Below, one piece after another: positions 409 through 54,040 of a stretch of DNA of 64,000 nucleotides (its first letter is position 1; each line of letters begins with the position of its first letter). This stretch comes from Mesostigma viride (taxonomy: Eukaryota > Streptophyta > Mesostigmatophyceae > Mesostigmatales > Mesostigmataceae): positions 315,001 through 379,000 of the forward strand of contig RPFO01000041.1 in NCBI GenBank assembly GCA_009746045.1, in the 5' to 3' direction. The notes under the pieces were generated by a model, which saw nothing but the letters and a program-made list of their open reading frames with translations, ran no database searches and was not told where the DNA came from. Both the position numbers and the translations under genes were made by a program.

Positions 409-851
409 AGTTAATAAACGAGTGGACCTCTCAATGCTCAATGGCCTAACGCATGTGTTTATTACAATAAATCACAAGCCCCGCACCCAACGTGCACAAG
501 GGCATTTAGCATTGTCGACAAGCAACGCTCTGCCTGGCTGCCACGTCTGGAGCAGCCGACAGTGGCCGTTGGGCTCTGTGGTGCAGCCTGAGTGGCGCGA
601 CGCCACTGCTAGACTCTCAGGACCTTAGTCCAACATCCGACACCTCAATGTCAGTCCCGAGTGGGTACTGGCGACGCCGTACCGCCAATCCTACTTGGGT
701 ACTGGCGTCCGTCACCAGGACTCGGCTATCGAATAGTCTAGCCTGCCGAATCACATATAGCCGGGACTTCTGACCGAGCCTACACGTGCGAAACCCCAGA
801 TAGCACATTGCTATCTGGTACTTAGCCTATGTCCACGACTAGAGGCTAACT
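409..851 (-). repeat. Element A LTR, 3' copy (minus orientation)
   Basis: 443 bp, matching 22983-23425 except for one base seen near 628. It contains two direct copies of GGGTACTGGCG around 663-706, with an inverted partner between them. Small open frames inside it occur in both copies and are not taken as genes. Confidence 0.95.
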
Positions 852-1220: not shown

Positions 1221-4200
1221 TCATCCATTTGTCTGACTAGACAGATAGGGATTCATTGCATCACACAGAAGCTGGTACTGGGTTGCTGCTAATGACGGAA
1301 TCTTGGTCAATGCGTCAGCCAGGTTCTCCTCGTCTGGCAGATGCTGCCAGCTGGAAAAATAGCTTGTTTCCTGTTTCAAAATCACCCAGTCCAGATCAGT
1401 ATGCACAGCAGCAGTCACAGATTTCTTGTTAAGGAAACTAATGACTGACTGACTGTCAGTGTGTAAGTGAGCATGCACATCAGCCTTGCTGCCAGCCTGA
1501 GTTTGCAACCAGGTTAGTATGTGCTGAAGGGATCGAGCATGCTGCACAGCAGACACCACCGCACGGCACTCAGCAGAGTTACTGCCAACAGCTTTTCTGC
1601 GATGCAATCTGCTGTACCACGACACCATGGACATATAGTCTCCCTTGTTGGTAAGGAAGAACACCCCAGCCTCCCTGGCATCCATTTTTGTTATTACCCT
1701 ACTCTCCATGGAGCTGTCCATCAGACAGTTAATGTGAATATCTTCCATGAGGTTGAGTGGATGAATGACAAGGGAAGGTCCAGCCTTTAGTAGCTTCTGG
1801 AGATCCTTAGGTTTCATGGTTTGTAATACTGTGTCATCAATCCTGCTGACCACTGCCAGATGAGGTGCACAGATAGCACTCAGCCACCCTAATTTTCCTT
1901 TGACAGTAGCACACATGTGAGCAGGAATGCACGGAATATCAAGCAGCTCTAGGCATTCTTCTAAGTACTGGGCAGGCGGGGATAGAGTACACACCCACTG
2001 TTCCTGTTGCTCTTCCAGTGCTAGCATTATGCCACAGAACTGTAGGGGTTCTGGCCCCAGCTCTGTCTGCTTTCCAATCTCATATGACTGCTGAACCTGC
2101 TGAATGAACTTGTCAACTTCAGCTCTTGGTCCACAAATCAGTTGGTCATCACCATGCCACACAAACAGGAGCAAGCCAGAGGGTGTGGGCACAGCAAAGA
2201 GACAAGGGTCCAGATCATCATAAGTGGCATTAAGTTTCTTGAACACCTCTTCTGCTGATTTTCTGAAGATAGTGGGAGCACTTTGCAAACCTTCCACCCC
2301 TAGATTTAGGAGTAGATATGGCTCATCAATATCATGTGCCCATGCAGCAGGGGTGGGAACCACATAGACCTGACCCTTCCACACATCTTGCGCTTTATCA
2401 GGGTCCCCTCTAAGGAAAGCCCTTTTGATATCAGTAGCTTTGCAGGCATAATCTTGGCCAGCATTGAGATGGTGGAGGAAGACAGAGAGCAGTATCCTGA
2501 GGGATGTTTGCTGCAGCCCAGGAGTGTAGAGTTCACCCTTGGACAGTTTTGACATGCCTTTTAATTCTGTCACACATGGCCTAGCATGATATATAGGTGA
2601 GCCTACTGGCTGTGCCTTGTGTTTTAGCACAAACTTGAGTCTCAACTTTTTGGCACCTTCTGGAATTTCCCAGACAGGAGTGACAGGTGGCTTATAGTCA
2701 GGATGCTTAGGGTTTGGCAGCACCCACTCTTCGCGGGCTTGGTGCCTAATGGCTTGGATCCATTTTTGAAACCCTTTTTGTGTTTTGCATTGTTGGATTA
2801 GAGCATCATAGTTGTGAGGAGAGTGCATGGCTAAGTCCCACTTTCCAACCCCAAAGGACTGCGGGTGTGGCCTTTGATTGTGCACCTTTTTCTCTAGGTC
2901 AGGGATTTCACCTGGCCCATATTTGATGTTAATGGCCTTGATATAGGCATCTAATCCATGAACCAGTTGGGACAATGGAATCTTGTAGTGATCCAAGGGA
3001 ATGGCTCCTACCCCAGTCACACGCAGCTGGCTAGCAGTGATGGTGACACCTGGGTAAGAGATAAAGGGTTCTCCCAACAAAGCATTGCCCATGTACCCTT
3101 CCACTACCTGGAAAGGTGTCTGGATGCCAAGTATGGGGATCATTACTTGACTCAACACATCTAAGGTTGTTTTGCCTGAAAAATCTTGCACCTGTGTCCA
3201 TGGTGAGGGTGCAAGTTGCAGACCAGGAATGGCTTGTGCACTGATCACACTGACCTGTGCCTGAGTGTCCACAGCTAGGATGCAGGATTCCTGGCTATAA
3301 TCGGAGCACACAGCAGAGACCTTGGCCAAACCTGAGGCTTGTTTAGCCTTGCTCTTGTGAGCCTTATGCAGAGCTGCCAGGGCTTTTTCTAGCTTGGATT
3401 TGAACTCAGCTGGATTGCCTTTGTTTTGCTCTGGTACCTCATGCCTGGTTGAACTCTGCCCAGAGGGACTTACACCAGGTTGTGGGGTGACACGTACCTC
3501 ACTGAGGGGTGGAGGAATGACAGAGGGTGTGGTAGTGCCATCATCAGCTCCTGGTGTTGGAATGCTGGGTGGTTCTGCTTGCTCACCAGAGTTAAGGAGG
3601 GAATCCATGTTCAAGGACTCTTCCCCTGGCACGTCTGCCAAAGGAGGGAAATACTTCTTAACTCTATGACTGCTCACCCTGTGTTTTCTCCCTGTTTCCA
3701 AACTTCGAATATCCATATTTTTTCCTTTTTTGGTCATTCTTAGAACAGTGCACGGACCATACCACATGCCTGTCTTGCCATGTTTGGTTTCTTTGAAATA
3801 TAGGACTTGTTCACCCAGTTGGAATACTGTTCTGGGGTGTGTTATGTCCTTTTCAGCTAGCTTATCAGCCACTTTAGCTCTTACTGTGTTATACAGAGCT
3901 AATACCTCTGGAGGGTACACACCTGCCTGTAAGCCAATGGGAAGGATTTCCCCCCATGGTGCATGCAACACAGGTCTAAGGTTAAGTGTAGCACAGATTT
4001 CACTGCACCACAGTGCTCTGTCAGCATAGCTTCCAGATGTGGCTTTCAGGTCAGTGGATTTCGCCACTAAAGTTTTGACTGACCTGATGGTTCTTTCAAT
4101 GACACCCTGCCCTTCATGATCTTGCAATCCAGCAATCTCAATATTAGCATCCCATCCTTCACACTCAGCCAGACAGCTAAACTGTTGATCAAGCAGTATA

Positions 4201-5180
4201 GTGTCAACTGGGTAGAATCTGGGCAATGCTATCACAAGTGCTGCACGCAGTTGCTCTTTAGCCATTCCAGGTAGGGGTTCCATGACAGTGAATCTGGACC
4301 ATGTGTCTTTTAGGATCAGATATTGTTCACCATCGATATGCACGACATCACCCACAAGTATTCCCCTTTGGGTGGGTGGTGTTGCGACATGCCATTTGGG
4401 AGGTTTTGGGCCATGGAACTGACATTGCTGGCAGTGTTTTCTAGCCAACCTGACAGCATTCCTGAGTCGTGAGCCTCCTGCTCTTCTGGCAATCTTTTCT
4501 GCCACCACCTCATGACCCATGGCTATGTGGAGCTGGGTTGCTAGTTCCCTTAAGTCTACTGTGTCAACAGCAGCTGGGGTAAGAGCTTTGAGGTAGGGCA
4601 GTATCACATTATACGTGGAGGAGATTTTCTGAGCTGCCTCAAAATCTAGCAGTCCCTTGTCTTTATCCCCAATGATAATGAGATCATATAAATCCACATA
4701 GGCGTGCTGTGAGGACGTACATCCTTTTGGAGCCTTGTCCTGCCGGTCGCACCACGTGCCGGGGGGCAGATGGCGGGGGTGCTTGCAACCGAAGCAGAGG
4801 TCCACGTCGCCTACTGCGGGGTTCCACTTGCAGTCCGCCCGCTGGTGTCCCTTGGTGCCACACCGGGTGCACTTGTTCTTGGGACCTGCATGGGGGGGCT
4901 GAGCAGTGGGTGCAGGGGTGGGTGGGGCAGGTGTGGGGGGGTGGGCCGCCTCCACTGGTTTGGCTTGAGCTGAGCAGGCTGTCCCGGCTGGCCTTGGGGC
5001 TGGTTGCCCTTGGCCTTCTTGGACTGGCCGCCCTGCTGCCCCCCTAGCTGGCGCTTTTTTCCTTGCCCCTTCCCTTGGGTCTGTTGGACCTTGGGGGTTG
5101 GGGTTGCAGACGGAGCACCTATAGCCAGGGGAGTCAGGCAGTCTTGGATATGGTTCATCCCCGCCCGGAAATCGTTCCAC
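1221..5180 (-). CDS. Element A pol polyprotein (zinc knuckle, integrase, protease, RT, RNase H)
   Basis: This 1319-residue frame replicates and integrates the element. Seen in order: zinc knuckle CTRCGTKGHQRADC (104-117); a second Cys/His cluster (129-144); integrase HHCC (H218, H223, C250, C253) and acidic residues D278, D331, E362; a GPY/F-like tail (about 455-510, with WYGPCTVL); an aspartic-protease-like module with VDTQAQVS (D638) and ALLG (700-703); copia-type RT with DIKRAFLRG (917-925) and WHGDD (1008-1012); RNase H acidic residues D1155, E1204, D1242, D1289 ending near ADALTK. Known copia elements place protease before integrase, and only about 70 residues separate the zinc knuckle region from integrase here. 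The frame overlaps gag in the -1 frame, so the first ATG is probably not the real start; entry is likely by frameshifting at 5054-5060. No internal stop is present. Confidence 0.92.
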   Translation of the reverse strand: MERFPGGDEPYPRLPDSPGYRCSVCNPNPQGPTDPREGARKKAPARGAAGRPVQEGQGQPAPRPAGTACSAQAKPVEAAHPPTPAPPTPAPTAQPPHAGPKNKCTRCGTKGHQRADCKWNPAVGDVDLCFGCKHPRHLPPGTWCDRQDKAPKGCTSSQHAYVDLYDLIIIGDKDKGLLDFEAAQKISSTYNVILPYLKALTPAAVDTVDLRELATQLHIAMGHEVVAEKIARRAGGSRLRNAVRLARKHCQQCQFHGPKPPKWHVATPPTQRGILVGDVVHIDGEQYLILKDTWSRFTVMEPLPGMAKEQLRAALVIALPRFYPVDTILLDQQFSCLAECEGWDANIEIAGLQDHEGQGVIERTIRSVKTLVAKSTDLKATSGSYADRALWCSEICATLNLRPVLHAPWGEILPIGLQAGVYPPEVLALYNTVRAKVADKLAEKDITHPRTVFQLGEQVLYFKETKHGKTGMWYGPCTVLRMTKKGKNMDIRSLETGRKHRVSSHRVKKYFPPLADVPGEESLNMDSLLNSGEQAEPPSIPTPGADDGTTTPSVIPPPLSEVRVTPQPGVSPSGQSSTRHEVPEQNKGNPAEFKSKLEKALAALHKAHKSKAKQASGLAKVSAVCSDYSQESCILAVDTQAQVSVISAQAIPGLQLAPSPWTQVQDFSGKTTLDVLSQVMIPILGIQTPFQVVEGYMGNALLGEPFISYPGVTITASQLRVTGVGAIPLDHYKIPLSQLVHGLDAYIKAINIKYGPGEIPDLEKKVHNQRPHPQSFGVGKWDLAMHSPHNYDALIQQCKTQKGFQKWIQAIRHQAREEWVLPNPKHPDYKPPVTPVWEIPEGAKKLRLKFVLKHKAQPVGSPIYHARPCVTELKGMSKLSKGELYTPGLQQTSLRILLSVFLHHLNAGQDYACKATDIKRAFLRGDPDKAQDVWKGQVYVVPTPAAWAHDIDEPYLLLNLGVEGLQSAPTIFRKSAEEVFKKLNATYDDLDPCLFAVPTPSGLLLFVWHGDDQLICGPRAEVDKFIQQVQQSYEIGKQTELGPEPLQFCGIMLALEEQQEQWVCTLSPPAQYLEECLELLDIPCIPAHMCATVKGKLGWLSAICAPHLAVVSRIDDTVLQTMKPKDLQKLLKAGPSLVIHPLNLMEDIHINCLMDSSMESRVITKMDAREAGVFFLTNKGDYMSMVSWYSRLHRRKAVGSNSAECRAVVSAVQHARSLQHILTWLQTQAGSKADVHAHLHTDSQSVISFLNKKSVTAAVHTDLDWVILKQETSYFSSWQHLPDEENLADALTKIPSLAATQYQLLCDAMNPYLSSQTNG
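5054..5060 (-). promoter_or_regulatory. Candidate -1 frameshift site A AAA AAG in gag-pol overlap
   Basis: On the minus strand, in gag phase, the codons read GGA AAA AAG, a canonical X XXY YYZ heptamer. A -1 slip moves gag into the open pol frame just upstream of the zinc knuckle. Element B has gag, knuckle and integrase in a single frame, so a one-base indel in A is the alternative. Confidence 0.55.
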
Positions 5181-5463
5181 AGAGGTTTGAGACCTGCAAC
5201 CACAGTGGCGTACACAGCTTTGTCCAGGTTAGCATTTGACAACCATGAATACAGCAGGTAGCTAGCAGGCAGACCCCTGAGATCAGGGTCCTTTTCTACA
5301 GCCAACCTATAATTCTTGCAATCAGTGGCATAGTCTTGCTTGTTGACCTGGTAAGCATTAAGCCAGTTGAAACCACGGATGGATTCAAACTGTGTCCTAT
5401 CCACCAGCAAGTGCTTAAGCTCATCCATGAAGGCTGGCCACAATGCAATTGCTAGGTTAGGTG

Positions 5464-5468
5464 TCCCA
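5464..5468. repeat. Target site duplication of Element B, left copy (TCCCA)
   Basis: TCCCA directly precedes the 5' LTR of B and is repeated at 21172-21176 directly after its 3' LTR. The 5-bp length fits Ty1/copia integrases. Confidence 0.93.
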
Positions 5469-5923
5469 AGTTAGATGAGATGCTTAGGCTGACACACGGA
5501 TTTCCGGCCTGCGCGCCGCGTATTGCCTACCGCGGCTGAGCGGGACACCTCAGTACAGTACGGCAGGGTGTACGGTACTGAGGTGTCATGTGGACCGATG
5601 TGCGGTTAGTGCCAGACTGTTCCTAGGTGCTAGCTCGACCCGCCAGGTCCGGTGTAGCCGGGCCTGACGGGCCGAGTCTTAGCTGGTTGCTAGTGACGTG
5701 GTCGCATGGCATTGCGGTGTACACTTGTCCACTGGTAGTGTGCTGCAGGTAGCACCGCCATAGGCATATAGGCGTAGCACTGGGGAGTGCCACAGCACCC
5801 GAGTCTGCCCAGTTCCATTCTGAGCCCTCAGCTTTCATCGCTCTCTCATTGTATTATTGTAATACAATCATCATTCGCTCTCAGCTTTCGCAGTTGTTCG
5901 TCGTCCCTAGTCTCCATCCAACT
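5469..5923 (+). repeat. Element B 5' LTR
   Basis: 455 bp. It includes a perfect 11-bp inverted repeat, CACCTCAGTAC (5546-5556) against GTACTGAGGTG (5575-5585), that could fold as an RNA hairpin. The last 75 bp (TTGTATTATTG... to the end) recur at 21097-21171 on the far side of transposon C. Confidence 0.95.
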
Positions 5924-8692: not shown

Positions 8693-10681
8693 AACAACAA
8701 CAACAACAAGAAGCAGGACAAGGAGGACAAGTCTTCTCAGCGGTGCACCCGCTGTGGCATGAAGTACCACCTGCGGCCCACCTGCCGCAAGAACGTGGAC
8801 GAGCTGGGGCATTTGGACGTCCTGTGCCACAAGTGCCACGGGCCGCCCCACGGTGACCCCAAGGACTGCAAGCGGCCTCCTTACGGCAAGAAGTGTGAGT
8901 CTCCCTCTCATGCTGGCTTGAGTGTGCCTGCTTCACCTTCTTCTTCTGCATGCCCCACTGTCAGAGCAGTGAGCAGTTCTGGAAAGGTGCTACAGCTGGT
9001 TTCAGAAGATTATGTCTCTAAACCAACCTTCACATCTATGGTTCCCAAGGTGTGCAGAGTGTCCCCAGCAGAGGATGCTCAGATCAGTTTTCAGGAGCTT
9101 GCTTTGCAGTTGCATTTCCTTTATGGGCATGAAGTGAGTGCAGAGGTGGTGGCAGCAGCAATAGGGGGGGCAGCACTCAGACGTGCATGCCAGGTGGTCA
9201 GATCCCACTGCCAGCATTGTCAGTTCAATGCACCCAAACCCCCTAAGTGGCATGTAGCTACCCCACCTAAGAGCAAGGGCAGGGTGGTAGGAGATGTCTT
9301 TCATATCAAAGGACAATCTTACTTGGCACTTAAAGATGCATGGTCAAGGTACACAACCATTGAACCATTACCTGGAATGGACAAGACACAGTTGCTCAGG
9401 GCTCTCTTGATTGCTCAGGCCAGGTACTACCCTGTGGAGGCATTGTTACTGGATCAGCAGTTCACATGTCTTGCCAATGAACCAGGGTGTGAGGCTATTG
9501 ATCTGGCTGGGCTAGAAGATCATGAGAGGCAAGGCATTATTGAAAGGGCCATCAGGTCCATTAAAACCCTTGTAGCCAAAGAAGATGGCAATCTGCTGGC
9601 TGACAGTGGGTCCTATGCTGACAGAGCTCTGTGGTCCACCAGGTTGTGCCAAGTCCTCAACAGGAGGCCACTCATGAAAACCCCACAAGGGGTGGTCATT
9701 ACACCAGATGGATTGCATGCAGGCATTTATCCACCTGAGGTACTAGCCCTCTACAACGCACAGCGAGCACAGACAGCTAGCAGGTTAGCTGTCAAGGATG
9801 CAAAGCATCCACGTCCCACCTTCAGAGAAGGGGATCAGGTCCTATTCTACAAGGAGTCGGGACTAGGCAAGGTGGGTACCTGGCATGGGCCAGCCACCAT
9901 CCTAAAGTTTAACACCACTGGCAGGACAGTGTTAGTTAAACACAATGACACGGGAAAAATTCACAGGTGTTCACCTCACAGGATGAAATTGTATTTTCCA
10001 ACTGTGTCAGACGTGGCAGAGGAGGAAGAGCTGTTGGCCGACAGCCCTGTACAGTTGCCTGGCATCCCAGCGTTGCCCAGTGAGTGGTTGTTTGGAACAC
10101 CCACTGGTGAGTGTGAGAGCCACACCCACTGTGACACCCAGGTCACCCTTGATGATTGCAGGCAGTCACTGCAGGATTGGCCCCCTGCAGCAGAGGGTCA
10201 CATTGGCAAAACAGGTGATCAGCAACCTATCACCTCTACAAGTGTGAACATAGCTCAGCCACTAGCTGCACCTTCCAAACGCAGCCTAGCAGACGCTGTT
10301 CGCATTTTACAAGCAGCTCATAGAGCCAAAGCTCAAACTGCTGCAGGATCAGCTAAGGTGGGGAAGGTTGGGCAGAATGACAATAGCCCATTTATGGTTG
10401 CAGTGGACACACAAGCCCAGGTCAGCATTATCAGTGCCCTGGCTGTGCCCCATTTGCCTTTGGAACCTTCACCCTGGCACCATGTGGCTGATTTCTCAGG
10501 GCAGTCATCCCTCAAGGTATTAGGTCAGGTCATGTTGACTATACTCGGTATCCCCACCCTTTTCAGGTATTGGAAGGTTATAAAGGGAATGCTTTGTTGG
10601 GGGATCCTTTTCTCTGTTACCCTGGTGTCCTCATATCCAGTGATAGACTATCCATCCAGGACATGGGTGGTGTTGATCTGA
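6785..10681 (+). pseudogene. Element B gag-pol: gag core, zinc knuckle, integrase, protease
   Basis: The meaningful part starts near 7190. Gag core: GLPEGYTREQ (about 7872) and a helical segment similar to that of A. Next come a Lys-Gly repeat (8524-8600), a polyAsn tract from AAC repeats (about 8624-8709), zinc knuckle CTRCGMKYHLRPTC (8744-8785) and a second Cys/His cluster. Integrase: HHCC near 9109-9220, then acidic residues near 9293, 9449 and 9545. A GPY/F-like tail follows (about 9826-9995, with WHGPATIL). The protease-like motif VDTQAQVS is at about 10403. The protein text ends in nonsense after about 10560, where the frame breaks; the partner frame continues with RT at 10561. The integrase precedes the protease, as in A. 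Confidence 0.85.
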
Positions 10682-12453
10682 ATCATTTCAAAATTTCTCT
10701 TGAAAAACTTCTTAACACCAACATTGCTTCTGTAAAATTTGCTACACCCAAGTATGCCCCAGGGCAAGAACCCTGTGTGGCAGACCTGGTTCACAACCAA
10801 AAACTTCATCCCAACTCATTTGGATTGGGCAAGCATGATGTGGCTAAAATGTCTCCTCTTTCTTATGAACAGATAGAGCAAGACTGTCGCACACACATAG
10901 GATTCCTAAAATGGGTGGAGGCCTTTAACAAGGCCAGGGAAGAATGGGTAGTGCCAGATCCTCTTAGTCCTTCTCATACTCCCCCTGTCACACCTATTGA
11001 CAAAAAGCCTGCAGGGTGCAAGCACTTGCGCCTGAAGTTTGTGTGTAAACATAAGCCAGCAGCAGATGGGTCAGTCATCTTTCATGCTAGACCTTGTGTG
11101 ACAGAGTTCAAGGGCACCACTGATCTGACAGAGGCAGAGTTGTACACGCCAGGCATTCAGCAAACATCCCTAAAAATCTTGCTGTCTGTCTTTGTGGGTC
11201 ATCTCAATGATGGGGATGACTATATCTGTAAGGCTACAGACATTAAAAGGGCTTTCCTGAAAGGCTCACCTGAGATAGCACAACAAGTGTGGCATGGTCA
11301 GGTGTACGTAGTCTCCACTCCCAGAGTTTGGGCAAAACACATCCCTCAGCAGTACCTGAAAGCTAACATAGGTGTTGAAGGGCTGCAATCAGCTCCTCGC
11401 ATTTTCAGGATGTCAGCTCAGGCTGTGTTTGAAAAGTTAGGGGCTAGATATGATGACATAGACCCTTGCTTCTTTGTGGTCCCACACCCTCATGGCATTC
11501 TCACCTTTGTGTGGCATGGGGATGATCAGCTGATTGCTGGGCCAAGGCGTGCTGTGGATGATTTTATTCAACAAGTGTCACAGCATTTTGAGATTGGCAA
11601 GCAAGTAGAGCTGGGCACCACTGCCATAAAATTTTGTGGCACAATGTTACAACTCCAGCAGCATCAAAACCAGTGGGTGTGTGCACTCTACTCTCCCAAT
11701 GATTACATGCACAGCTGCTTGGAGGTTTTGCAAACAAAAATCAAACCTGGAGCCTGTCCTACCATTAGAGGCAAGCTGGGGTGGTTGTGCTCAACGTGTG
11801 CACCTCACCTGGCTGTGGTTAGCAGAGTTGATGATGATGTCTTGATGCAAGTAGGTCACAAAGCCATCACCAAAACTCTCCAGGAGGGCCCTCCCCTTAT
11901 CTTGCACTCCTTGGATCTCCACAAAACCATTCACATCCAAGCTATGATGGATAGTTCCATGGAGTCCAGGCAGATTACCAAGATGCAGGCAAGGGAGTCA
12001 GGCTTGTATTTTGTGCAGAATGATGATGCACCCTTGTCTCTCATTTCATGGTACAGCCGGTTGCATAGACGCAAGGCTGTCAGCAGCAATGCTGCTGAGT
12101 GCAGGGCAGTGGTGTCAGCAGTGCTTCATGCCAGGTACTTGAATCATGTGCTGGTTTGGTTGCAGATGCAAGCAGGCAGCAATGCTGGGGTGGTGGCACA
12201 CTTGCTCACTGACAGTCAGTCAGTCCTCAGTTTCCTTGCTAACCCCTATGCTGTCCACACTGATCTTGACTGGGTGGTCCTGAAACAGGAGTCCACCTAC
12301 TGGGAGTCCACCCGTCACGTGGAGGACAAACACAACGCTGCTGATGCACTCACTAAAGTGCCTCAGCAGGCAGCTGAACAATATCAGCTGTTGTACCACT
12401 TGATGAACCCCTATGGCAAGCAGGCAACCCTGCCCCATAGGGGGGACGCCTAG
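10561..12453 (+). pseudogene. Element B pol: reverse transcriptase and RNase H
   Basis: The ATG at 10570 is not a true start: the homologous frame of A continues through this point, so this is the downstream piece of one polyprotein. It contains the end of the protease module (GNALLGDPF), copia-type RT with DIKRAFLKG (about 11240), WHGDD (about 11512-11526), and RNase H with MDSSMESR (about 11947), AAECRAVV (about 12088), LTDSQSV (about 12208) and AADALTK (about 12338). Full-length similarity to residues 690-1319 of the A polyprotein is evident by eye. The break at 10559-10563 (CCCTTTT) is best explained by loss of one base; no canonical slippery heptamer is in phase. Confidence 0.9.
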
Positions 12454-13517: not shown

Positions 13518-13897
13518 AGTTAGATGAGATGCTTAGGCTGACACACGGATTTCCGGCCTGCGCGCCGCGTATTGCCTACCGCGGCTGAGCGGGACACCTC
13601 AGTACAGTACGGCAGGGTGTACGGTACTGAGGTGTCATGTGGACCGATGTGCGGTTAGTGCCAGACTGTTCCTAGGTGCTAGCTCGACCCGCCAGGTCCG
13701 GTGTAGCCGGGCCTGACGGGCCGAGTCTTAGCTGGTTGCTAGTGACGTGGTCGCATGGCATTGCGGTGTACACTTGTCCACTGGTAGTGTGCTGCAGGTA
13801 GCACCGCCATAGGCATATAGGCGTAGCACTGGGGAGTGCCACAGCACCCGAGTCTGCCCAGTTCCATTCTGAGCCCTCAGCTTTCATCGCTCTCTCA
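13518..13897 (+). repeat. Element B 3' LTR, first 380 bp
   Basis: Matches 5469-5848 with no difference that I can see. It is interrupted after CTCTCTCA by transposon C; the remaining 75 bp are at 21097-21171. Confidence 0.95.
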
Positions 13898-13928
13898 GAG
13901 GGGATTCATAAGTGTTTGCTCAATTTCA
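13898..13928 (+). repeat. Element C left terminal inverted repeat
   Basis: 31 bp, starting GAGGGGATTCATAAGT. It is the perfect reverse complement of 21063-21093. Confidence 0.95.
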
Positions 13929-14004
13929 TAAATTTTACTCAATTTTTCCACATGTGATTAAATCCTTATATTTGTCAATAAAGCAGGGGTCATCCAGCCT
14001 TCAG

Positions 14005-15055
14005 ACCATGAAAATAGACCACCCACAAAAATTGGGCTCATTCTGAGCTCAAATGGTGACATGTGACAGCATACATGTGCAGTTTTTCGTCATTTCCCCC
14101 CTTTACTTACATGAAACAAATATGAATAGTGAACAAATGAACTCATATCAGGCTGGATTCTTGCAGGCAGCATGTATACCATGAAAATAGACCACCCACA
14201 AAAATTGGGCTCATTCTGAGCTCAAATGGTGACATGTGACAGCATACATGTGCAGTTTTTCGTCATTTTCCCCCTTTTCTTACATGAAACAAATATGAAC
14301 AGTGGACAAATGAACTCATATCAGGCTGGGTTCTTGCAGGCAGCATCTAGACCATGAAAATAGACCACCCACAAAAATTGGGCTCATTTTGAGCTCAAAT
14401 GGTGACATGTGACAGCATACATGTGCAGTTTTTAGTCATTTTCCCCCTTTTCTTACATGAAACAAATATGAATAGTGAACAAATGAACTCATATCAGGCT
14501 GGATTCTTGCAGGCAGCATGTCGACCATGAAAATAGACCACCCACAAAATTTGGGCTCATTCTGAGCTCAAATGGTGACATGTGACAGCATACATGTGCA
14601 GTTTTTCGTCATTTTCCCCCTTTTCTTACATGAAACAAATATGAATAGTGAACAAATGAACTCATATCAGGCTGGATTCTTGCAGGCAGCATGTAGACCA
14701 TGAAAATAGACCACCCACAAAATTTGGGCTCATTCTGAGCTCAAATGGTGACATGTGACAGCATACATGTGCAGTTTTTAGTCATTTTCCCCCTTTTCTT
14801 ACATGAAACAAATATGAATAGTGAACAAATGAACTCATATCAGGCTGGATTCTTGCAGGCAGCATGTAGACCATGAAAATAGACCACCCACAAAAATTGG
14901 GCTCATTCTGAGCTCAAATGGTGACATGTGACAGCATACATGTGCAGTTTTTCGTCATTTTCCCCCTTTTCTTACATGAAACAAATATGAATAGTGAACA
15001 AATGAACTCATATCAGGCTGGATTCTTGCAGGCAGCATGTAGACCATGAAAATAG
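14005..15055 (+). repeat. Element C left subterminal array (173-bp unit)
   Basis: Units start at 14005, 14178, 14351, 14524, 14697 and 14870, with a partial at 15043. The period is exactly 173 bp. Each starts ACCATGAAAATAGACC and contains GAGCTCAAATGGTGACATG. The same unit is found inverted at 19601-20990. Such arrays are plausible transposase-binding regions (inference). Confidence 0.95.
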
Positions 15056-15794
15056 ACTGTTTACAGCTCAAAAGGTGACAAATGAAAGGAAAACAATGCA
15101 GTTTGATGCCATTGCCACTGTTCTCTTGAATAAAACATTTTTGTGCGACCAAATGAACTCGATCGATCATGTCAGGCTGGAAACTTGCAAGCATCAACTG
15201 AATCATGAAACTTCATGATTCAATCTGAGATGAAATGGGATGGCACAAGAGCAACCCAGGCCATCGACAAGGCACATGTCTCGGCTGCCAGTGGCACGCC
15301 ACGTACTCTTTCAGTCCAGCATGAATATACAATAAGTACTAAGACATCACCTTCTACTAGAAGCACTGGCTCACTTAATAATACATCAGAAACTAGTATA
15401 AGCTTAGCTGGTAAACCAGTCATTGCTCATAGTCCAGTCATTGGAGAAGTTTGGCCACTGCTGCAATGGGCGGCCGACACCATAGTTGGGCGGAGCTGAC
15501 ACGGATGATGGCACCCACGTGGTCACCGGGCGCCATCGTGGCACGGGCGTCGTGTTCCCAGACATGGCCAGTGTCGCAATTGAGTTGAGCGCAGCCACCG
15601 CCACAGAGACCGTGCCAGAGAAGGGGTCAATGGATGGGAGCCGGCGTCCACCAACCTGCACACCACCACCCAGCACATCAAGCCAGCATGCCTTAGGGCA
15701 CGGTATATGAAGGAATAATCAACAAACCAAACAAATATATCCTATATACTCCAACAAACTATTCACAAAGGCAGATTATGTTGATTCAAAGAAA
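15056..15794 (-). other. Region downstream of the PHD-like gene, with a possible second exon (15404-15676)
   Basis: On the minus strand a frame of about 90 codons ends at 15404 and contains TPVPRWRPVTTWVPSS. A splice donor AG|GTATGT sits upstream at 15811-15816, near the end of the polyQ exon, and AG acceptors occur around 15660-15700. A spliced C-terminal exon is therefore plausible; the join was not verified. The rest (15056-15400) shows nothing I can identify. Confidence 0.4.
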
Positions 15795-16122
15795 TCACAA
15801 TAGGAAAGGACATACCTGGGGAAGTTGCATCTGAGCCAGCATTTGCTGCACTTGCGCGAGGGGCGCTACTTCGGCGTCCCCGTCAATTACTCGTGTAGTC
15901 GTTGTAGCGGCAGGGAGTGGGAGGCGATAGTGTTGCTGTTGTTGCAGCAGCTGCTGCAGTTGCTGCAGCACCAGCTGCTGCGGATGCTGCTGCTGCTGCA
16001 GCTGCTGTAGGAGCGGCTGCAGCAGCTGCTGTAGTTGCTGGTGCGGCGGCGGCGGCTGCTGCTGCAGCTGCTGTAGGAGCTGCTGCAGCAGCTGCTGCTG
16101 CTGTGGCGGCGGCGCCGGCTGC

Positions 16123-16164
<42 letters not shown>

Positions 16165-17969
16165 AGGAGCTGTGAGAGCTGCAGCAGCTGCTGTGGCTGC
16201 AGCAGCTGCTGCGGCGGCGGCTCCTGCTGCTGCTGTTGCAAAGGCTGCTGCTGCTGCTGCATTTGCTGCTGCTGCTGCAGCTGCTGTAGGAGCTGCTGCT
16301 GCTGCTGTTGGTGCTGCTGCTGCTGCTGCTGCTGTTGCTGTTCCATCTCCTGCATCTTGCGTTGCAGCTGCGCAACCTCCGCGTTGTACTGCTTGTGCTG
16401 GTCCGTTGTACTGCTTGTGCGGCGTAGCTTCGCTACTTCTTGGTCCGAGTCGCGTTCTTCACCCGAGTCATCGCAGCGTACATATACCGAGCTCGAGGGA
16501 GGCCTCTTGTTGCGAACACCACTCGCCCTGGCTTCGGTGCTCGGCTTGACTGGCACTTGAACACCGCACTTGGGCTCTGCAGTTGGCTGCTGGCTGTCCG
16601 CCTTCACACGCTTGGAGCGTGTGGGGTGAACCAGCTGCGCCTCTGGCACGCTTTTGTTAGCGCGAGGTTGGCTGGAAGTGGCAGCTGGTGGTGGTGCCGT
16701 GGCAGCTGGTGGTGGTGCGACGCGCTTTGGGAAGTCCTTTACCAAGTCAAACTTGACGGCCTCGCCTTTGTTTGTGTAGATCAAGCCACCAGATGTGGCT
16801 CGAAGCGCCGCCAGACCTGCGTTTGGCAGGTATTCGCACACAGCATCTAGCCGGTCGCGCAGGACGGTCAGGTCGCCAACCGTGGCGACAGCACCATCCT
16901 CCATGAAGACGGGCCGAAGGGCCTGGGATTGCTGAGCCCAGTTCACGTAATATGCTGGGGGATCAGGCGTCAGCTTGGCCCCCCCGCTCTTGACAGCCTT
17001 TTCCATGATGTCCTTTCTTCCGTACGGTGTGTTGGCCAGGAAGATCCCCGCTCCTCCAGGGTACAAATGAAACCCAAGAATTACCTTGGGGAAGAGGGGT
17101 TTGCCAAACTCCTTATGAGGGATGGAGACGCGAACCAATTGTCCAACACGGAGATGGCCAGGGGAGGGGCCATCAGGGGAGGGAAGCCACGTCATAAACG
17201 CTGGAGCTTCCGACGCAAGTTGGTCGCCGGACTTGAGGTTCGCTGCATCAAAGCTGGCGCGCCGTGTCGCACTGCTAGCGCTGCCAGGCATGGCAGCTGC
17301 TGCCGGCTGGGCCTCGTCAAGGTTAGCGTGGTCTCCATGTTCTGCACCGCCTGCACAGGGGGGAGTCGCGGAGTCGCGGGGGTGTGAGGAGTCGGGTAGG
17401 TCATCGTCCACCACCCCCGCGGTCGACTTTTCATCACTCGATTGAACGCCCTTGCTGGCATCAGCCGGAATTGACGGCACGTCCTCCTTGCTGCGTGCAT
17501 CTGATTCCTGGGTGGCATGGCCGTCGGTAGTACGAGGAAACACTAGCTTCCTGCCGGGTGCCTGGTGATGTGCTTTCTCGAAGTCGTCAACGGCCTTGCA
17601 TCCGGAATCATCCATCAACATGCGCCGGTCTTTGTCGGTGTTTGGAAGAAACTTGTTAGCAGCGGACCCCAGGGCCGGGGGGGGAGTGCCGACCTCATGA
17701 TGACCGTTCGAACCCGAAGCTTGGAGATTGGCAACTTTCACGCCACCGGGGTCACGGCATCCTGGGCACCACCACTCCTCCCCATTTTTATTCCCGTCAA
17801 TTGCCTTGACGCAGATCGCATGAGCAAATAGGTTGCAGCTTTCACCATTTCGGCCCCGACAGTTGTTGTCTGCCCCATCGGCATGGCCTAAGAGGCAAAC
17901 ACCCGCAGTTCGTCCATAACACAGTCGTTCTGCCCGCAGCCTCTCTGTTTCACTCAGATACTCCGCCAT
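15795..17969 (-). CDS. PHD-like zinc-finger, polyglutamine protein carried by Element C
   Basis: 724 residues as one open frame from MAEYLSETER. Residues 17-71 form a Cys/His cluster (C25, C37, C45, H50, C53, C68, C71; HxxC and WWCPGC) resembling a PHD finger, a chromatin-reading fold, although the first spacings are atypical. Residues about 270-435 form an ordered region (VGQLVRVSIPHKEFGKP, NKGEAVKFDLVKDFPKR) that I do not recognise. A short coiled coil (about 525-550) leads into a long Gln-rich tract with some Pro and Leu (about 550-700), encoded by CAG repeats at 15940-16340. A donor-like GTATGT near the 3' end suggests that the last few residues are intronic. It is the largest gene of the transposon and may assist transposition or target chromatin (inference); it shows no DDE motif. 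Confidence 0.7.
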
Positions 17970-18231
17970 ATCCCCTACAATTTAGCGGACGACGAACTTC
18001 ATCGTCGACGACGTCATAGGCTGGCACGTTCTCGTTGTGTTCGTGCGCGCATGCCCTGCAGTGTTTTCTTGGCAGACTAGTGCACGCACCTCCACCCGCG
18101 CGCGCGCAAAGACGACGGTCACTGCGCTTTGTTCATTCAAATGCCATTTGCATGCGAGGCTCGGACAACGCCGCGGACTGTTTCACTTTTTGGATGGTCC
18201 TTCGTTTCTCGCATGTTCAGCCCAGTTCAGG
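17970..18231. other. Upstream region of the PHD-like gene
   Basis: GC-rich segment containing an alternating CG run (CGCGCGCGC, about 18098). It probably holds the promoter of the minus-strand gene. No TATA-like element is obvious. Confidence 0.4.
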
Positions 18232-18715
18232 TTGTACGGTCAGTGTTGGGGGTCGGTGAATGGGTTCTCAATGGAATTCTCAATGGAATGCCGCAACAGC
18301 CCATTTTCATTGAGAATGCAAGTCCTTTTCGCATGTTCAGCCCAGTTCAGGCTGTACGGTCAGTGTTGGGGGTCGGTGAATGAGTTCTCAATGGAATTCT
18401 CAATGGAATGCCGTTACAGCCCATTTTCATTGAGAATGCAAGACCTTTTTGCATGTTCAGGCTGTACGGTCAGTGTTGGGGGTCGGTGAATGAGTTCTCA
18501 ATGGAATTCTCAATGGAATGCCGTTACAGCCCATTTTCATTGAGAATGCAAGACCTTTTTGCATGTTCAGGCTGTACGGTCAGTGTTGGGGGTCGGTGAA
18601 TGAGTTCTCAATGGAATTCTCAATGGAATGCCGTTACAGCCCATTTTCATTGAGAATGCAAGACCTTTTTGCATGTTCAGGCTGTACGGTCAGTGTTGGG
18701 GGTCGGTGAATGAAT
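18232..18715 (+). repeat. 110-bp tandem repeat in Element C
   Basis: The landmark CAGTGTTGGGGGTCGGTGAA starts at 18241, 18361, 18471, 18581 and 18691 (spacing 120, 110, 110, 110). Each unit holds TCTCAATGGAATTCTCAATG and an inverted partner TTCATTGAGAATGCA. It lies between the PHD-like gene and the rightward open frames. Confidence 0.93.
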
Positions 18716-18720
18716 TCTGA

Positions 18721-19043
18721 ATGGAACTCTCATGCGCCGCGCTGAGGCGGCGGAAGATCGAGCCACAAACGAGGCAGGAGAGGCATAATTGGGAGAGGCG
18801 TGCCAACATAATTGCGAGAGCTGCCATGGGCGGTCGTGAAGGTTCAGACTATTGGAGGCGCCGTGACGAATATGGTGGGGGGCGCTGGAATTTTCTGTCG
18901 TTGGAAATTGAAAAAGACCCTTGCCCCAGGCCCCCTGTTTTAGCCGGGGATGAGGCAGCTTGCTGGAGAATGTTCGTTGCCGTTTTGGTGTTGCTGCTCT
19001 TACGTCCCGACCACCAGGGGCCTGTCTCGTACAAGGGGAATTG
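18721..19043 (+). other. Short open frame, unrecognised
   Basis: About 107 codons rich in Arg/Glu that end just past the left arm of a 16-bp inverted repeat. It could be an upstream exon of the frame that follows, but no splice sites were confirmed. Confidence 0.25.
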
Positions 19044-19676
19044 ATGCCCAGGCAGCGTCGATTCCCCTTGTACGAGGCCTACAACGTCGTAGTAGACGTT
19101 GATCATGACGATCAGGTCGACCATCTGGATATCGGCAGTGATGACGATGATGATGTAGGTGGTGGGTGCCGCACAGCAGGATTCAAATCATCAGCAACAA
19201 CAGTACTGAAATACGCCTGTAATGCCCATGTGATCGCGGCAGAGCTGCGCGGGCGGTGTTGTAAACATAGATGCATACAAGATCCCCAGAGCCCCCTGTC
19301 ATCCTTTGTAATATGGGAGGCGGCACGTAGCAAATATTGGGGGCTGTCCTGCAATGAACGCCGGCAGCTGGTGGTGGGGCTCTTTGTCGCTGCCGGCCTG
19401 GAGCATGTGACAGTCACCTTGCCAGAGTTTGGCCGACACCATGGGAAATACGAATGCTCGGTGCCGGTTGTGGCGGAGGTGCTGGTGCATGGGCGACGGC
19501 ACCACGTGGAGGGGTGCCACCATGCGATACGACGCATGTTTGGCATCGCCCACTCCACGTGGAGTTGCGACATGGCCCATCTGCTATACTGTTTGATGGT
19601 CTACATGCTGCTTACAAGTTTCCAGCCTGATCTGAGTTCATTTGTTCAATATTCATATTTGTTTTATGTAAGATAA
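19044..19676 (+). pseudogene. Possible truncated transposase N-terminus in Element C
   Basis: The frame opens at MPRQRRFPLYEAYN, passes through an acidic run (GSDDDDDVGGG) and then reads ELRGRCCKHRC followed by ARSKYWGLSCNERRQLV. A CC.+C motif followed by a Trp- and Arg-containing helix recalls N-terminal zinc-binding segments in various uncharacterised eukaryotic transposase-like proteins; this is a weak memory-based resemblance. From about 19600 the frame runs into the 173-bp array (MVYMLLTSFQPDL), so any catalytic domain is missing. Best read as a decayed transposase fragment, or else a novel small protein. Confidence 0.35.
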
Positions 19677-20990
19677 CCGAGAAAATGACGAAAAACTGCA
19701 CATGTATGCTGTCACATGTCACCATTTGAGCTCAGAATGAGCCCAATTTTTGTGGGTGGTCTATTTTCATGGTATAAATGCTGCCTGCAAGAATCCAGCC
19801 TGATATGAGTTCATTTGTCCACTATTCATATTTGTTGCATGGAAGTTAACCGAGAAAATCACGAAAAACTGCACATGTATGCTGCCACATGTCACCATTT
19901 GAGCTCAGAATGAGCCCAATTTTTGTGGGTGGTCTATTTTCATGGTCTAGATGCTGCCTGCAAGAATCCAGCCTGAAATGAGTTCATTTGTTCACTATTC
20001 ATATTTGTTTCATGTAAGAAAAGGGGGAAAATGACGAAAAACTGCACATGTATGCTGTCACATGTCACCATTTGAGCTCAGAATGAGCCCAATTTTTGTG
20101 GGTGGTCTATTTTCATGGTATAAATGCTGCCTGCAAGAATCCAGCCTGATATGAGTTCATTTGTTCACTATTCATATTTGTTTCATGTAAGAAAAGGGGG
20201 AAAATGACGAAAAACTGCACATGTATGCTGTCACATGTCACCATTTGAGCTCAGAATGAGCCCAATTTTTGTGGGTGGTCTATTTTCATGGTATAAATGC
20301 TGCCTGCAAGAATCCAGCCTGAAATGAGTTCATTTGTCCACTATTCATATTTGTTTCATGTAAGTAAAGGGGGAAAATGACGAAAAACTGCACATGTATG
20401 CTGTCACATGTCACCATTTGAGCTCAGAATGAGCCCAATTTTTGTGGGTGGTCTATTTTCATGGTCTACATGCTGCCTGCAAGAATCCAGCCTGATATGA
20501 GTTCATTTGTTCACTATTCATATTTGTTTCATGTAAGAAAAGGGGGAAAATGACGAAAAACTGCACATGTATGCTGTCACATGTCACCATTTGAGCTCAG
20601 AATGAGCCCAATTTTTGTGGGTGGTCTATTTTCATGGTCTACATGCTGCCTGCAAGAATCCAGCCTGATATGAGTTCATTTGTTCACTATTCATATTTGT
20701 TTCATGTAAGAAAAGGGGGAAAATGACGAAAAACTGCACATGTATGCTGTCACATGTCACCATTTGAGCTCAGAATGAGCCCAATTTTTGTGGGTGGTCT
20801 ATTTTCATGGTCTACATGCTGCCTGCAAGAATCCAGCCTGAAATGAGTTCATTTGTCCACTATTCATATTTGTTTCATGTAAGTAAAGGGGGAAAATGAC
20901 GAAAAACTGCACATGTATGCTGTCACATGTCACCATTTGAGCTCAGAATGAGCCCAATTTTTGTGGGTGGTCTATTTTCATGGTCTACAT
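19601..20990 (-). repeat. Element C right subterminal array (173-bp unit, inverted)
   Basis: Eight copies of the same unit in inverse orientation; CTATTTTCATGGT ends at 19773, 19946, 20119, 20292, 20465, 20638, 20811 and 20984, exactly 173 bp apart. The first copies are the most diverged (for example AGATAACCGAG in place of AGAAAAGGGGG). Confidence 0.95.
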
Positions 20991-21062
20991 GCTGCCTGCA
21001 ACAGTCCAGCTTTAGGTACCCTCAGATCTGAAAGATTTTTTTTTTACTCATTTGAAGACTTG

Positions 21063-21093
21063 TGAAATTGAGCAAACACTTATGAATCCCCTC
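21063..21093 (-). repeat. Element C right terminal inverted repeat
   Basis: Perfect 31-bp reverse complement of 13898-13928, followed by the TCA duplication. Confidence 0.95.
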
Positions 21094-21096
21094 TCA

Positions 21097-21171
21097 TTGT
21101 ATTATTGTAATACAATCATCATTCGCTCTCAGCTTTCGCAGTTGTTCGTCGTCCCTAGTCTCCATCCAACT
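21097..21171 (+). repeat. Element B 3' LTR, last 75 bp
   Basis: Matches 5849-5923 and ends CATCCAACT. It is followed by the right TCCCA target duplication at 21172-21176. Confidence 0.95.
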
Positions 21172-22951
21172 TCCCAGCCTTTTCTTGGTAAATCTGGACC
21201 AAGGTTTTAATGGCTGGGGCTGACCTATGGATGGTGGTGGATGCACGCAAGGCACTGAACCAGTTCTGGACATTCAGAGACTCAAAACAGTAGTTCAGGC
21301 TAAACAAAAATTCCTTGGCCTGTTCCTGGGTGTAACCCTCAGGTAAGCCAGGGATTTCTATTTTAGATTCTTTTTGTTTTGGGTTAAACGTACCTTTGAC
21401 CGGGTCCTTCTTTTCAGCCAAGAAAGTCTTGACTGCTTGTTGAAGATCAGCCTCCTCCATGTTCGCCCTGCCCCTTTCCAGCTGGGAGATACTGGCCAGG
21501 AGGCCATCCAGCTGGGTGCGCGACAGGTCGTCCATGGGGTTGGTGGCCATGGTCTTGAGCTGTGCCGTGAGTATGGCAAGCAGCTCTTGGACGTCCCCCT
21601 TAAGGGTGGGTGGGGTTGGGTCCACTGGGGTCCCTTTTGCCACCGCCTTGCTCTTATCTGACTGCCCTGGTGTGGGTGCAGTCTGCTGGGCCTCCGCAGA
21701 AGGTGGTTGTGTTCCAGCTTGCTGTGCTAGTGCAGTGGCTGGTGGTGTTCCAGCTGCAGGCGCAGGGTCTTGTTCCCCTTGCCTTACTCCACTGCTGGTA
21801 GGAAAACCCTTGGCCTGGCCAAGCTGCTGCAGCGCTGCTGCTTGGGCTGCCAGGCCGCCCTCACGGGCTATCATGGCCTGTAGGAGTTTATTCTCCACCA
21901 CCTTGCGGCGGGGGAGCTCCTGGGCATCCGGGTCACTTGGGGGTTTGCTGGGGGAGCTGGGGACAGTGCCCTGGCTCTTGCCCTGCAGCACCCTTGGTGA
22001 CACGGCCCCTCCAACCACCCTTTGGCTCAAATCAGTGCCAGGGGTGGGGAGGGTATGTGCAGGGAGTGCAGGCGTTTCTGTTGCCTGCATCTTCTCCTGC
22101 AGCTTGGTCAGCTGCAACAGGAGGGAATTGAGTTGGTCCGCTGTTAGCGTGACCCCCTCGTCCCCCTGTGCAACAACCAGCTCATTGAAGAGGCGCTCAT
22201 GGAGCACCTCTCCAGCTTGCATGGCAGCCAGCTGCTTTTCAGCAGTCATGTTGCGGGCCGCTGTCTTTTTGCAGTCCCGCTCTTGCTGTGCAAGACGGCG
22301 TGCCTCTACAAACTGGGCGGCGGCCTGTTCGACCGCCTGATTGAGTGGATTCATCTCAATCTCCCCATCAGAAACCCCTGGGGAGAGGGTGACCTCGTCA
22401 TCAGACAGCTGAATGCTGCCGATGACGGGTCCTGGGACCTTCTTGGTCCGCATTTTGAACATGTATGCGTCCCTCTTCAGCTTCCTCTCGTACCCCCCCG
22501 CTTTCTGAGCGGATGAGGGGACGATCGGCACCCCCGCTTGTTCTCCACCGCTTTTGGCTATTCCGCCCTCCTCCTGAGGAGGTTGGGACGGTGCCTTAGC
22601 GGGGAGGTCAGCGGGGCTTGCCTGAGGGCTGGGGGACCGCATACTGCTTACGGATTTTTGCGAGCTAGCTGGGCTAGAAAAAACAGATTTTTCGGCCTGT
22701 TCGGCCAAGGAGGTTACCTGTTTTTGCAGGGCTGCCAGCTGCCGCTCTTGGGCGGCTGCCTTGACGCTTTGCTGAGCCATCGCTGTCGCTAGCTGCCTAG
22801 CCACTAGCTGTTCCTGCTCCGCCTGCGCCCTTCTTGCTTTTTTAATTTTCTTGGCCGCAGCCTTCTCCTCTACTGTTGGCACCGTCTGCCAGCCAGCATC
22901 ATCTATCCGCTTCTTTTTGAATTTCAGGCCTGGCATAATAGGATCTCCCAT
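21172..22951 (-). pseudogene. Element A gag, N-terminal part, severed by Element B
   Basis: Begins MGDPIMPGLKFKKKR at 22951, 31 bp inside the 5' LTR. Residues about 28-90 are a charged, Ala/Gln-rich coiled coil (AEQEQLVARQLATAMAQQ). A long Pro/Ser/Ala/Gln-rich middle follows, then the conserved IPGLPEGYTQEQAKEFL and LNVQNWFSALR, matching gag of Element B. The frame runs out in the B LTR; its continuation is at 4811-5468. It forms the structural particle protein. There are no internal stops, so disruption by B is the only visible lesion. Confidence 0.88.
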
Positions 22952-22982: not shown

Positions 22983-23425
22983 AGTTAATAAACGAGTGGA
23001 CCTCTCAATGCTCAATGGCCTAACGCATGTGTTTATTACAATAAATCACAAGCCCCGCACCCAACGTGCACAAGGGCATTTAGCATTGTCGACAAGCAAC
23101 GCTCTGCCTGGCTGCCACGTCTGGAGCAGCCGACAGTGGCCGTTGGGCTCTGTGGTGCAGCCTGAGTGGCGCGACGCCACTGCTAGACTCTCAAGACCTT
23201 AGTCCAACATCCGACACCTCAATGTCAGTCCCGAGTGGGTACTGGCGACGCCGTACCGCCAATCCTACTTGGGTACTGGCGTCCGTCACCAGGACTCGGC
23301 TATCGAATAGTCTAGCCTGCCGAATCACATATAGCCGGGACTTCTGACCGAGCCTACACGTGCGAAACCCCAGATAGCACATTGCTATCTGGTACTTAGC
23401 CTATGTCCACGACTAGAGGCTAACT
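22983..23425 (-). repeat. Element A LTR, 5' copy (minus orientation)
   Basis: 443 bp with AGTTA/TAACT ends. It matches 409-851 apart from one base near 23194. Confidence 0.95.
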
Positions 23426-52702: not shown

Positions 52703-54040
52703 CTAGTAAATTCTGCTTGTTAGTCGGCCCCCTTCCCCAAGCTCGTTCGTGATCGCTAGGCCAGGGGCACGGCCTGCAATGCTAGCAAAGCGAGCACGTG
52801 CCTGGCGCATAACATAATCCACTACAATAATAAACAGGTACGGCGACAGGACGCAACCCTGCCAGACGCCGGTCTGCAGTGGGCAGGGCGGGGTTATGCC
52901 GTGCTGAGTGCGCACCGAAGTGGTGGACCCCTCATACAGCGTGCGGATGACGGTAATCAGGGGAGTGGGGACGCGAGCGCGAGCAAGTACAGCCCATAGA
53001 GCGTCCCAGAGGACAGAATCAAAAGCCTTGATGAAGTCGACGAAGATCAGGATGGCGGGAAACTCACCAGGTTGCAGGAGAGCGATTTCCTCGAAGAGGC
53101 GACGCGCGACGAAGATGGCCATGACGGTGTTGCGCCCAGGACGGAAGCCCATTTGACTTTCCCCAAGGTGACAGTCGAGAGCAGAACGAAGGCGGTTGAG
53201 GATCATGCGCATGAACAACTTAAGTGCGGCGCTCTGGATGCAGACTCCTCTGTAGTTGGCGGGGTCGTCAGGGGAACCTTTGTTTTTGTACAGCATAATA
53301 CGGTAGCTGTGCTGCCACTCCGGAATCGGCGGCGCGTCGGCAAGCAGGATCCGGTTGCAGACGTCAAGCAGGAACCCCGTGAGCGCCGTCAGCTTAATCA
53401 CCGGGGCTGGGAGCTGGTCAGGTCCAACGGCAGCATAGAAGCGGAGTTGCTTGGCGGCGGTGCTCAGCTCGAGCTCGGTGAACGGCGGGAGCTCGTTGGG
53501 GTGGGCCAGGGGTTCCGTCAGGGCTGGGTACGTGTAGTCCTGCTCAGCGGCGGGTGGCGTGGGCGGCGCAGGGACGTCCGCCGGTGCTACTGCCAGGCGT
53601 GCGGCCGCCAGAGGGCCAAGCGGCGGAGGCGGCGGGGGGGCGCCGAGCAGCCGGGACTGGGAGGAATACCACTGGTTGAGCTGCTGCTGCGGTGAGCCAG
53701 AGAGCGTCCGCGGCGCCGGCTGCGCGCCGCCGGCGGGCCGTTGGGCGTGACGCAGGCGGGTCCAGGCGTACTTGCCGTGCTGGTCCTTGAGGTGGGCGAA
53801 GTACTCGCGGACATGAAGGTCCTCCTGCTCCTTGGTCGCCTGCCGGATGGCCGAGTGGTAATCGGCTTTGAGGCGGGCGTAGCGGGCGGGGTCGCGGTTG
53901 TCGCGCAGGGCTTGCCGGGCCTGGATGACGGCGGGGAGCCGGTGCAGGCTGGTGAAGCGGGGCGGGCGGCGGGGGGGCAGTAGGGCCCCGGCCGCGGGCA
54001 GCTTGTCAGCGAGGTGCCGAAGGGCCGATGCCACCATGGG
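52703..54040 (-). pseudogene. LINE reverse transcriptase, N-terminal and central part
   Basis: The open frame formally begins in satellite sequence (first ~11 residues), so that ATG is not native. Residues 12-200 resemble the linker before a LINE RT (Pro-rich at 140-180). RT blocks: PANYRGVCI (271-279), QMGFRPGRNT (307-316), FVDFIKAFDS (344-353, catalytic Asp D346) and GVWQGCVLSPYLF (402-414). The frame stops at 52703, just before the catalytic YADD, which is found in the adjacent frame. A one-base change near 52705-52715 would reunite them. Confidence 0.88.

Follow-up and report, generated by a model that had tools for sequence, protein, structure and literature searches.

Can a retroelement with a Copia-type reverse transcriptase (RT) carry its integrase ahead of its protease? 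The question is raised by Element A, a long terminal repeat (LTR) element of the streptophyte green alga Mesostigma viride, which lies on the minus strand of contig RPFO01000041.1 within positions 315,001-379,000 (64,000 nt, referred to here as the window). Domain order serves as a marker for comparing families of LTR retroelements, and the available part of Llorens et al. 2009 describes the Copia order as uniform, with pr preceding int in every known Ty1/Copia genome (PMC2774666). A sequence-only reading of the window had proposed that Element A and a second element, B, carry integrase directly after the zinc knuckle and a retropepsin-like module between integrase and RT. Pfam and alignment analyses bear out this arrangement in both elements, and we recovered it in two further families, A' and D. 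We consider it likely that all four are LTR families with a Copia-type RT and RNase H in which the order is nucleocapsid, integrase, retropepsin-like protease, RT and RNase H (IN-PR-RT-RH), and we infer from this how their Gag-Pol would work and how the order would have originated.

The single pol frame of Element A encodes zinc knuckles, integrase, a protease-like module, a Copia-type RT and RNase H, in that order, and Element B repeats the order on the opposite strand:

1221..5180, minus strand: A pol open frame, 1319 amino acids (aa)
4749..4871, minus strand: two zinc knuckles of A (nucleocapsid; zf-CCHC)
3636..4568, minus strand: integrase of A (pol residues 205-515), with HHCC, D278-D331-E362 and a C-terminal W-GP module, from the four-family alignment and hhalign
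2976..3302, minus strand: protease-like domain of A (pol 627-735), with DTQA at 638-641 and an LLG loop (gag-asp_proteas)
2061..2810, minus strand: Copia-type RT of A (pol 791-1040, WHGDD; Pfam RVT_2)
1266..1715, minus strand: RNase H of A (pol 1156-1305), from motifs and a colinear hhalign alignment to P0002, an RVT_2 protein (source label lgn)
8744..8880, plus strand: zinc knuckles of B, aligned to A
9062..9988, plus strand: integrase of B, 57% identical to A (rve, sub-threshold)
10253..10564, plus strand: protease-like domain of B, first piece, with DTQA (gag-asp_proteas, E-value 0.032, the better of two sub-threshold matches)
10570..10728, plus strand: protease-like domain of B, second piece, with LLG, in a different frame
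11002..12399, plus strand: RT and RNase H of B (RVT_2, E 8.5e-10, over cut-off)

Since A and B are only 62% identical in RT-RNase H and yet share the order, a one-off rearrangement is excluded. The sequence-only reading had argued against chance from these two diverged families; the argument now extends to four. In A, where that reading had counted some 70 residues between the zinc cluster and the integrase, the spacer after the second knuckle is about 60-75 residues long. The CCHC at residues 102-118 matched zf-CCHC under the curated cut-off, with E 0.03 in the whole open reading frame (ORF) and 0.0027 in the segment.

Assignment of the integrase relied on alignment. Its residues in A are H218, H223, C250, C253, D278, D331 and E362; HHCC, D278 and D331 (A numbering) are invariant in the four families. 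As the third acidic residue, A, A' and B have Glu and D has Asp. The integrase of D (L035:940-1881) accordingly reads GMIDRT vs GVIERT, a feature common to both D loci read (L035 and L036). For the first catalytic residue we chose the Asp of the GD pair, since a later candidate (HID in A) is replaced by Lys in B and by Gly in D. Pfam rve was matched only in B and below threshold (E 0.027 with the ORF and 0.0046 with the segment alone), and a profile of the four integrases was colinear with that of P0002 over 188 columns (hhalign E 2.7e-4, probability 41%). In the C-terminal module, A, A' and B share a W-GP motif, of which D has the GP; an AlphaFold2 model of the integrase (2 rows) had a predicted local distance difference test (pLDDT) score of 40.7, with local blocks of 56-85 in this module. 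The RT of A matched RVT_2 at residues 837-1037 over the cut-off (E 7.5e-9), the sole RT family matched in Pfam, and that of A' matched it below the cut-off (E 3.1e-5). The RT-RNase H region was colinear with P0002 (hhalign E 3.7e-9). Matches of the RNase H region to NCBIfam metallo-beta-lactamases, far below cut-offs, were set aside as chance, and NCBIfam and PHROGs scans revealed nothing relevant.

The order recurs across families and copies. Family A' is 73% identical to A; D is linked to the others because it is 39% identical to A over the protease end, RT and RNase H. A genome search with the protease, RT and RNase H of A (64 rows, with 63 of 8444 candidates scored, so that counts are lower bounds) recovered at least 38 full-length A matches at 99-100% identity, window copy included, at least 19 full-length A' matches at 73%, and 7 partial ones. 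Among the best 30 of the 64 rows (loci L001-L030, including the window copy), 25 contained the full order, three lacked the knuckles and HHCC, and two held only the protease onwards in the fetched stretch. The order occupies one frame in 17 of the 25 complete loci and in all four further loci read (L031-L034; three A', one A). Family D is represented by P0001 (EukProt jgi/Mesvir1/3679), an RT-RNase H protein found full-length at 100% in 70 of 70 D rows (at least 70 copies); at locus L035, integrase and protease share an open frame of 1224 aa that continues into P0001. Copies within A, A' and D are near-identical and present in high number; the near-identity of A and D copies, together with near-identical LTR pairs of A and B, points to recent transposition by elements that carry DTQA. 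Open frames fall into recurrent classes, of 888, 1335 and 2018 aa among A copies and of 797 aa in 65 of 70 D rows. Such classes suggest that frame breaks were inherited and amplified in trans, that expression involves a frameshift, or that the assembly contains errors at base runs. Protein searches (about 8000 candidates scored in each) returned P0001 strongly and P0002 and P0003 weakly with RT-RNase H, nothing with pol residues 150-1319, and nothing at E up to 10 with integrase plus protease. Scans of viral contigs and genome contigs found no relative.

Every one of the 34 A and A' loci read has DTQA at the putative active site of the segment between integrase and RT, as do B and the two D loci read. 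The Gln is encoded by CAG in the A and A' families and by CAA in the other two. Conserved in the four families are the Asp, Thr and Ala of this motif, a flap-like stretch (DFSG/DFAG), and a second loop that is LLG throughout. The template of clan AA, in the part of the source available, is DTG/ILG with DT/SG at the active site (PMC2642776); the segment matches it at D, T and LG, the ILG-type loop being present as LLG, and not at the Gly of DT/SG, where all four families have DTQ. The change from Gly to Gln and the LLG loop are additions to the sequence-only reading. The sole Pfam family matched by the segment was gag-asp_proteas, both in A (residues 627-735; E 0.0036, model positions 12-90 of 92; E 0.047 with the whole ORF) and in A' (E 0.19, positions 9-89 of 92), a match that is suggestive and not decisive because it falls below the curated cut-off. 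None of ten controls (nine shuffles and one reversal of the A segment) matched any family at E up to 10.

Patterns of substitution provide an additional line of evidence. Between A and A', the ratio of nonsynonymous to synonymous substitution rates (dN/dS) was 0.10 in the protease, 0.09 in RT, 0.06 in RNase H, 0.17 in integrase, 0.21 in the linker, and 0.54 in the spacer before integrase (residues 150-205), values that are rough given a dS of 0.9-3.0. Between A and B, the corresponding ratio of proportions of differences (pN/pS) was 0.35 in residues 627-706 vs 0.36 in RT, with synonymous sites near saturation. The protease segment is under purifying selection comparable to that on RT and consequently is most likely a functional part of the polyprotein, not debris. 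A and D are 49% identical in the protease and 38% in the integrase. The linker that precedes the protease (about 110 residues) is variable, A and B being 26% identical over residues 515-595, and this variability would fit a flexible tether.

A number of observations weigh against the proposed arrangement as a working one. The gag-asp_proteas match reached the Pfam cut-off in no family, and neither the protease segment of D nor its RT (P0001) matched any Pfam family at E up to 10. All four families have Gln where DT/SG has its Gly, which may mean that catalysis is altered or absent. An AlphaFold2 model of the segment from a 4-row alignment had a mean pLDDT of 44.3, and sequence and profile searches of the PDB returned nothing or chance-level matches, with no retropepsin among the results for the segment. 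The retropepsin fold anticipated by the sequence-only reading is not confirmed by the model. Its broader proposal of a Copia-like IN-PR-RT-RH element is supported by the order in four families, the Copia-type RT and purifying selection on the segment. Frames are a further difficulty: B changes frame within the protease near 10564-10570, a frame change separates integrase from protease in eight of the 25 complete A loci, the 797-aa frame of 65 of the 70 D rows is too short for integrase and protease together, and L036, the sole 797-aa D copy read, has the two in different frames. Frame breaks are thus common, and the recent transposition could have involved copies served in trans. Finally, all four families come from one genome.

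These observations leave several explanations to be weighed. The ancestral Copia protease may itself have changed sides relative to the integrase, without any capture of an outside protease, a course that we regard as possible though doubtful. The RT and RNase H are Copia-like and one move would be enough, but the loop is LLG where Ty1/Copia proteases keep LLS with very few exceptions, according to the available part of Llorens et al. (PMC2774666), and the Pfam match is to gag-asp_proteas. Because of the LLG loop, a non-Copia origin of the protease is probable, and the families are perhaps a lineage with a Copia RT, placed either within or next to Ty1/Copia, whose retropepsin was captured from a non-Copia source.

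It is rather unlikely, in our judgment, that the segment is a catalytically dead derivative of a retropepsin, retained with its DTQA for dimerization or as a spacer while a host protease cuts Gag-Pol or no cutting takes place. The replacement of the canonical Gly in four families is what would be expected of such a domain, but the conservation of the Asp, Thr, Ala, flap-like stretch and LLG loop and a level of purifying selection close to that of RT are not. Nor was an alternative protease found in A or B, where the sequence-only reading had named a second, genuine protease ahead of the integrase as the finding that would overturn it. No in-frame D[STC][GQ][AS] after a hydrophobic residue occurs upstream of the integrase in either element, the other matches to this pattern lying within integrase, RNase H or another frame, and no Pfam protease was matched in the gag pieces of A or in the knuckle-spacer stretches of A and B.

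In family D the spacer that separates knuckles from integrase is longer (L036:1-960; about 190 aa vs about 60-75 in A) and contains LDTGA. As a working protease the LDTGA of L035 and L036 was rejected, with no Pfam protease match and 18 residues to the next VLG; it is possibly a decayed remnant of a former upstream protease.

We find it improbable that the segment is some other conserved domain with a chance DTxA and no relation to retropepsins. The poor structural model, the lack of a sensible PDB match, the absence of anything over the Pfam cut-off and the complete lack of a match in D would all be consistent with such a domain; however, the only Pfam family recovered in A and A' is an aspartyl protease aligned along almost the entire model, the controls were uniformly negative, and the motifs follow in the order D-T-x-A, flap-like glycine and LLG. 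The chance that the order is an artefact of chimeric copies, nested insertions or assembly error is negligible, for although the window is a nest of insertions (B in A, and a third element, C, in B), these fall in the gag of A and the LTR of B, outside pol, and the order was read in many separate loci of four families.

In other LTR elements, Gag-Pol is translated, packaged and cut by a protease dimer, the RNA is copied and the DNA is integrated. Under the IN-PR-RT-RH arrangement that we favor, a single Gag-Pol polyprotein would be made, two copies would pair inside the particle, and their protease segments would assemble into a retropepsin dimer centered on the Asp of DTQA. The protease would free itself from the integrase at its N-terminal side and from RT at the other and would cut the Gag and Pol joints; RT would then copy the RNA and the integrase would insert the DNA with a 5-bp duplication, as seen for B. 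The arrangement would have originated before the four families split, through loss of the protease that usually sits between nucleocapsid and integrase and the arrival of a retropepsin, probably of non-Copia type, between integrase and RT.

Ty1/Copia elements (Pseudoviridae) are among the known systems that most resemble these families. Shared features include the RVT_2 RT, RNase H after RT, integrase before RT, LTRs, CCHC knuckles and the 5-bp duplication (B). Differences are the integrase upstream of the protease in A, A', B and D and a protease with an LLG instead of an LLS loop and a DTQA active site. A third difference, the W-GP motif here vs Ty1/Copia integrases without the GPY/F module in the available part of the source (PMC2774666), is weak because P0002, with its RVT_2, shows a similar stretch. 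Judged by sequence, these are elements with a Copia-type RT-RNase H that depart from Copia in two of its criteria, domain order and protease loop. They are unlike Ty3/Gypsy (Metaviridae) in that the integrase lies before RT and not after RNase H, and in that the RT is RVT_2. Gmr1-like elements are also LTR elements with an integrase oddly placed for their RT lineage, but as far as the available text describes them they are Gypsy with the integrase downstream of the protease in the manner of Copia, whereas a Copia-type RT and an upstream integrase are combined here (PMC2774666). The caulimovirid Petunia vein clearing virus is reported to have its integrase ahead of the other genes (PMC2774666); there the integrase precedes gag, and in the present families it lies between nucleocapsid and protease. 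P0002 has a colinear integrase and RT-RNase H but no protease match between them; its start is cut off, so that a protease of its own would not be visible. A separate lineage of LTR elements, Troyka, has been argued for recently; in the part of the report available it was first reported within Metaviridae/Gypsy and is distinct from Copia by phylogeny, with no relocated protease (PMC12440569). That the Mesostigma families form a separate LTR-retroelement lineage of their own, a mosaic that combines a Copia-type RT-RNase H with an integrase lying ahead of a captured non-Copia retropepsin that is active with Gln for Gly, is a tentative proposal that we think has the lesser chance of being correct. 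The literature searched, with the Pseudoviridae profile of the International Committee on Taxonomy of Viruses among it (PMC8515867) but mostly without subscription papers and without Repbase, contained no published report of the IN-PR-RT-RH order.

The remaining features of Elements A and B are as follows:

409..851, minus strand: 3' LTR of Element A (443 bp; 99.77% identical to 22983-23425; ends AGTTA..TAACT)
22983..23425, minus strand: 5' LTR of Element A, from LTR pairing
21172..22951, minus strand: N-terminal part of A gag, past the B insertion
4811..5443, minus strand: C-terminal part of A gag, in another frame in the window copy
5469..5923, plus strand: 5' LTR of Element B (AGTT..AACT ends)
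13518..13897, plus strand: first part of the 3' LTR of B, with the rest at 21091-21171 past C (380-bp and 82-bp matches, 100% identical to the 5' LTR side)

Element A is bounded by its two LTRs and has no recognizable target duplication, its left flank being a GGGA repeat; at locus L034 the C-terminal part of gag shares one frame with pol. Element B sits inside the gag of A, flanked by a 5-bp target duplication (TCCCA at 5464-5468 and 21172-21176), and its 5' LTR is followed by a stretch starting with TGG, a candidate tRNA primer binding site. The LTRs of A and B (409, 851, 5469, 5923) terminate in AGTT..AACT; customary LTR termini are TG..CA. Element C (about 13898-21090) splits the 3' LTR of B, in which it is nested. 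It carries a terminal inverted repeat (GAGGGGATTCATAAGTG..), and close to either end is a 173-bp tandem array, the two being inverted relative to each other (6.1 copies at 14003-15057 and 8.2 inverted copies at 19592-21010). A polyglutamine ORF (15795-17969, minus strand) has a weak PHD-finger match (E 0.55). A 71-bp satellite occupies most of 25874-60073, and an ORF for an RT of the long interspersed nuclear element type (52703-54073, minus strand; RVT_1 E 1.3e-21) lies between satellite arrays.

Annotation that expects protease, integrase and RT in that order may misread elements of this kind. If cutting works here, the protease must be freed from the integrase at its N-terminal side as well as from RT, a peculiarity of the order. 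The four families are natural protease-like families that depart from the active-site template of clan AA, so that they offer a direct test of whether the conserved glycine is needed. That a further domain order exists in high-copy families with near-identical copies suggests that the positions of integrase and protease can be exchanged with mobility kept.

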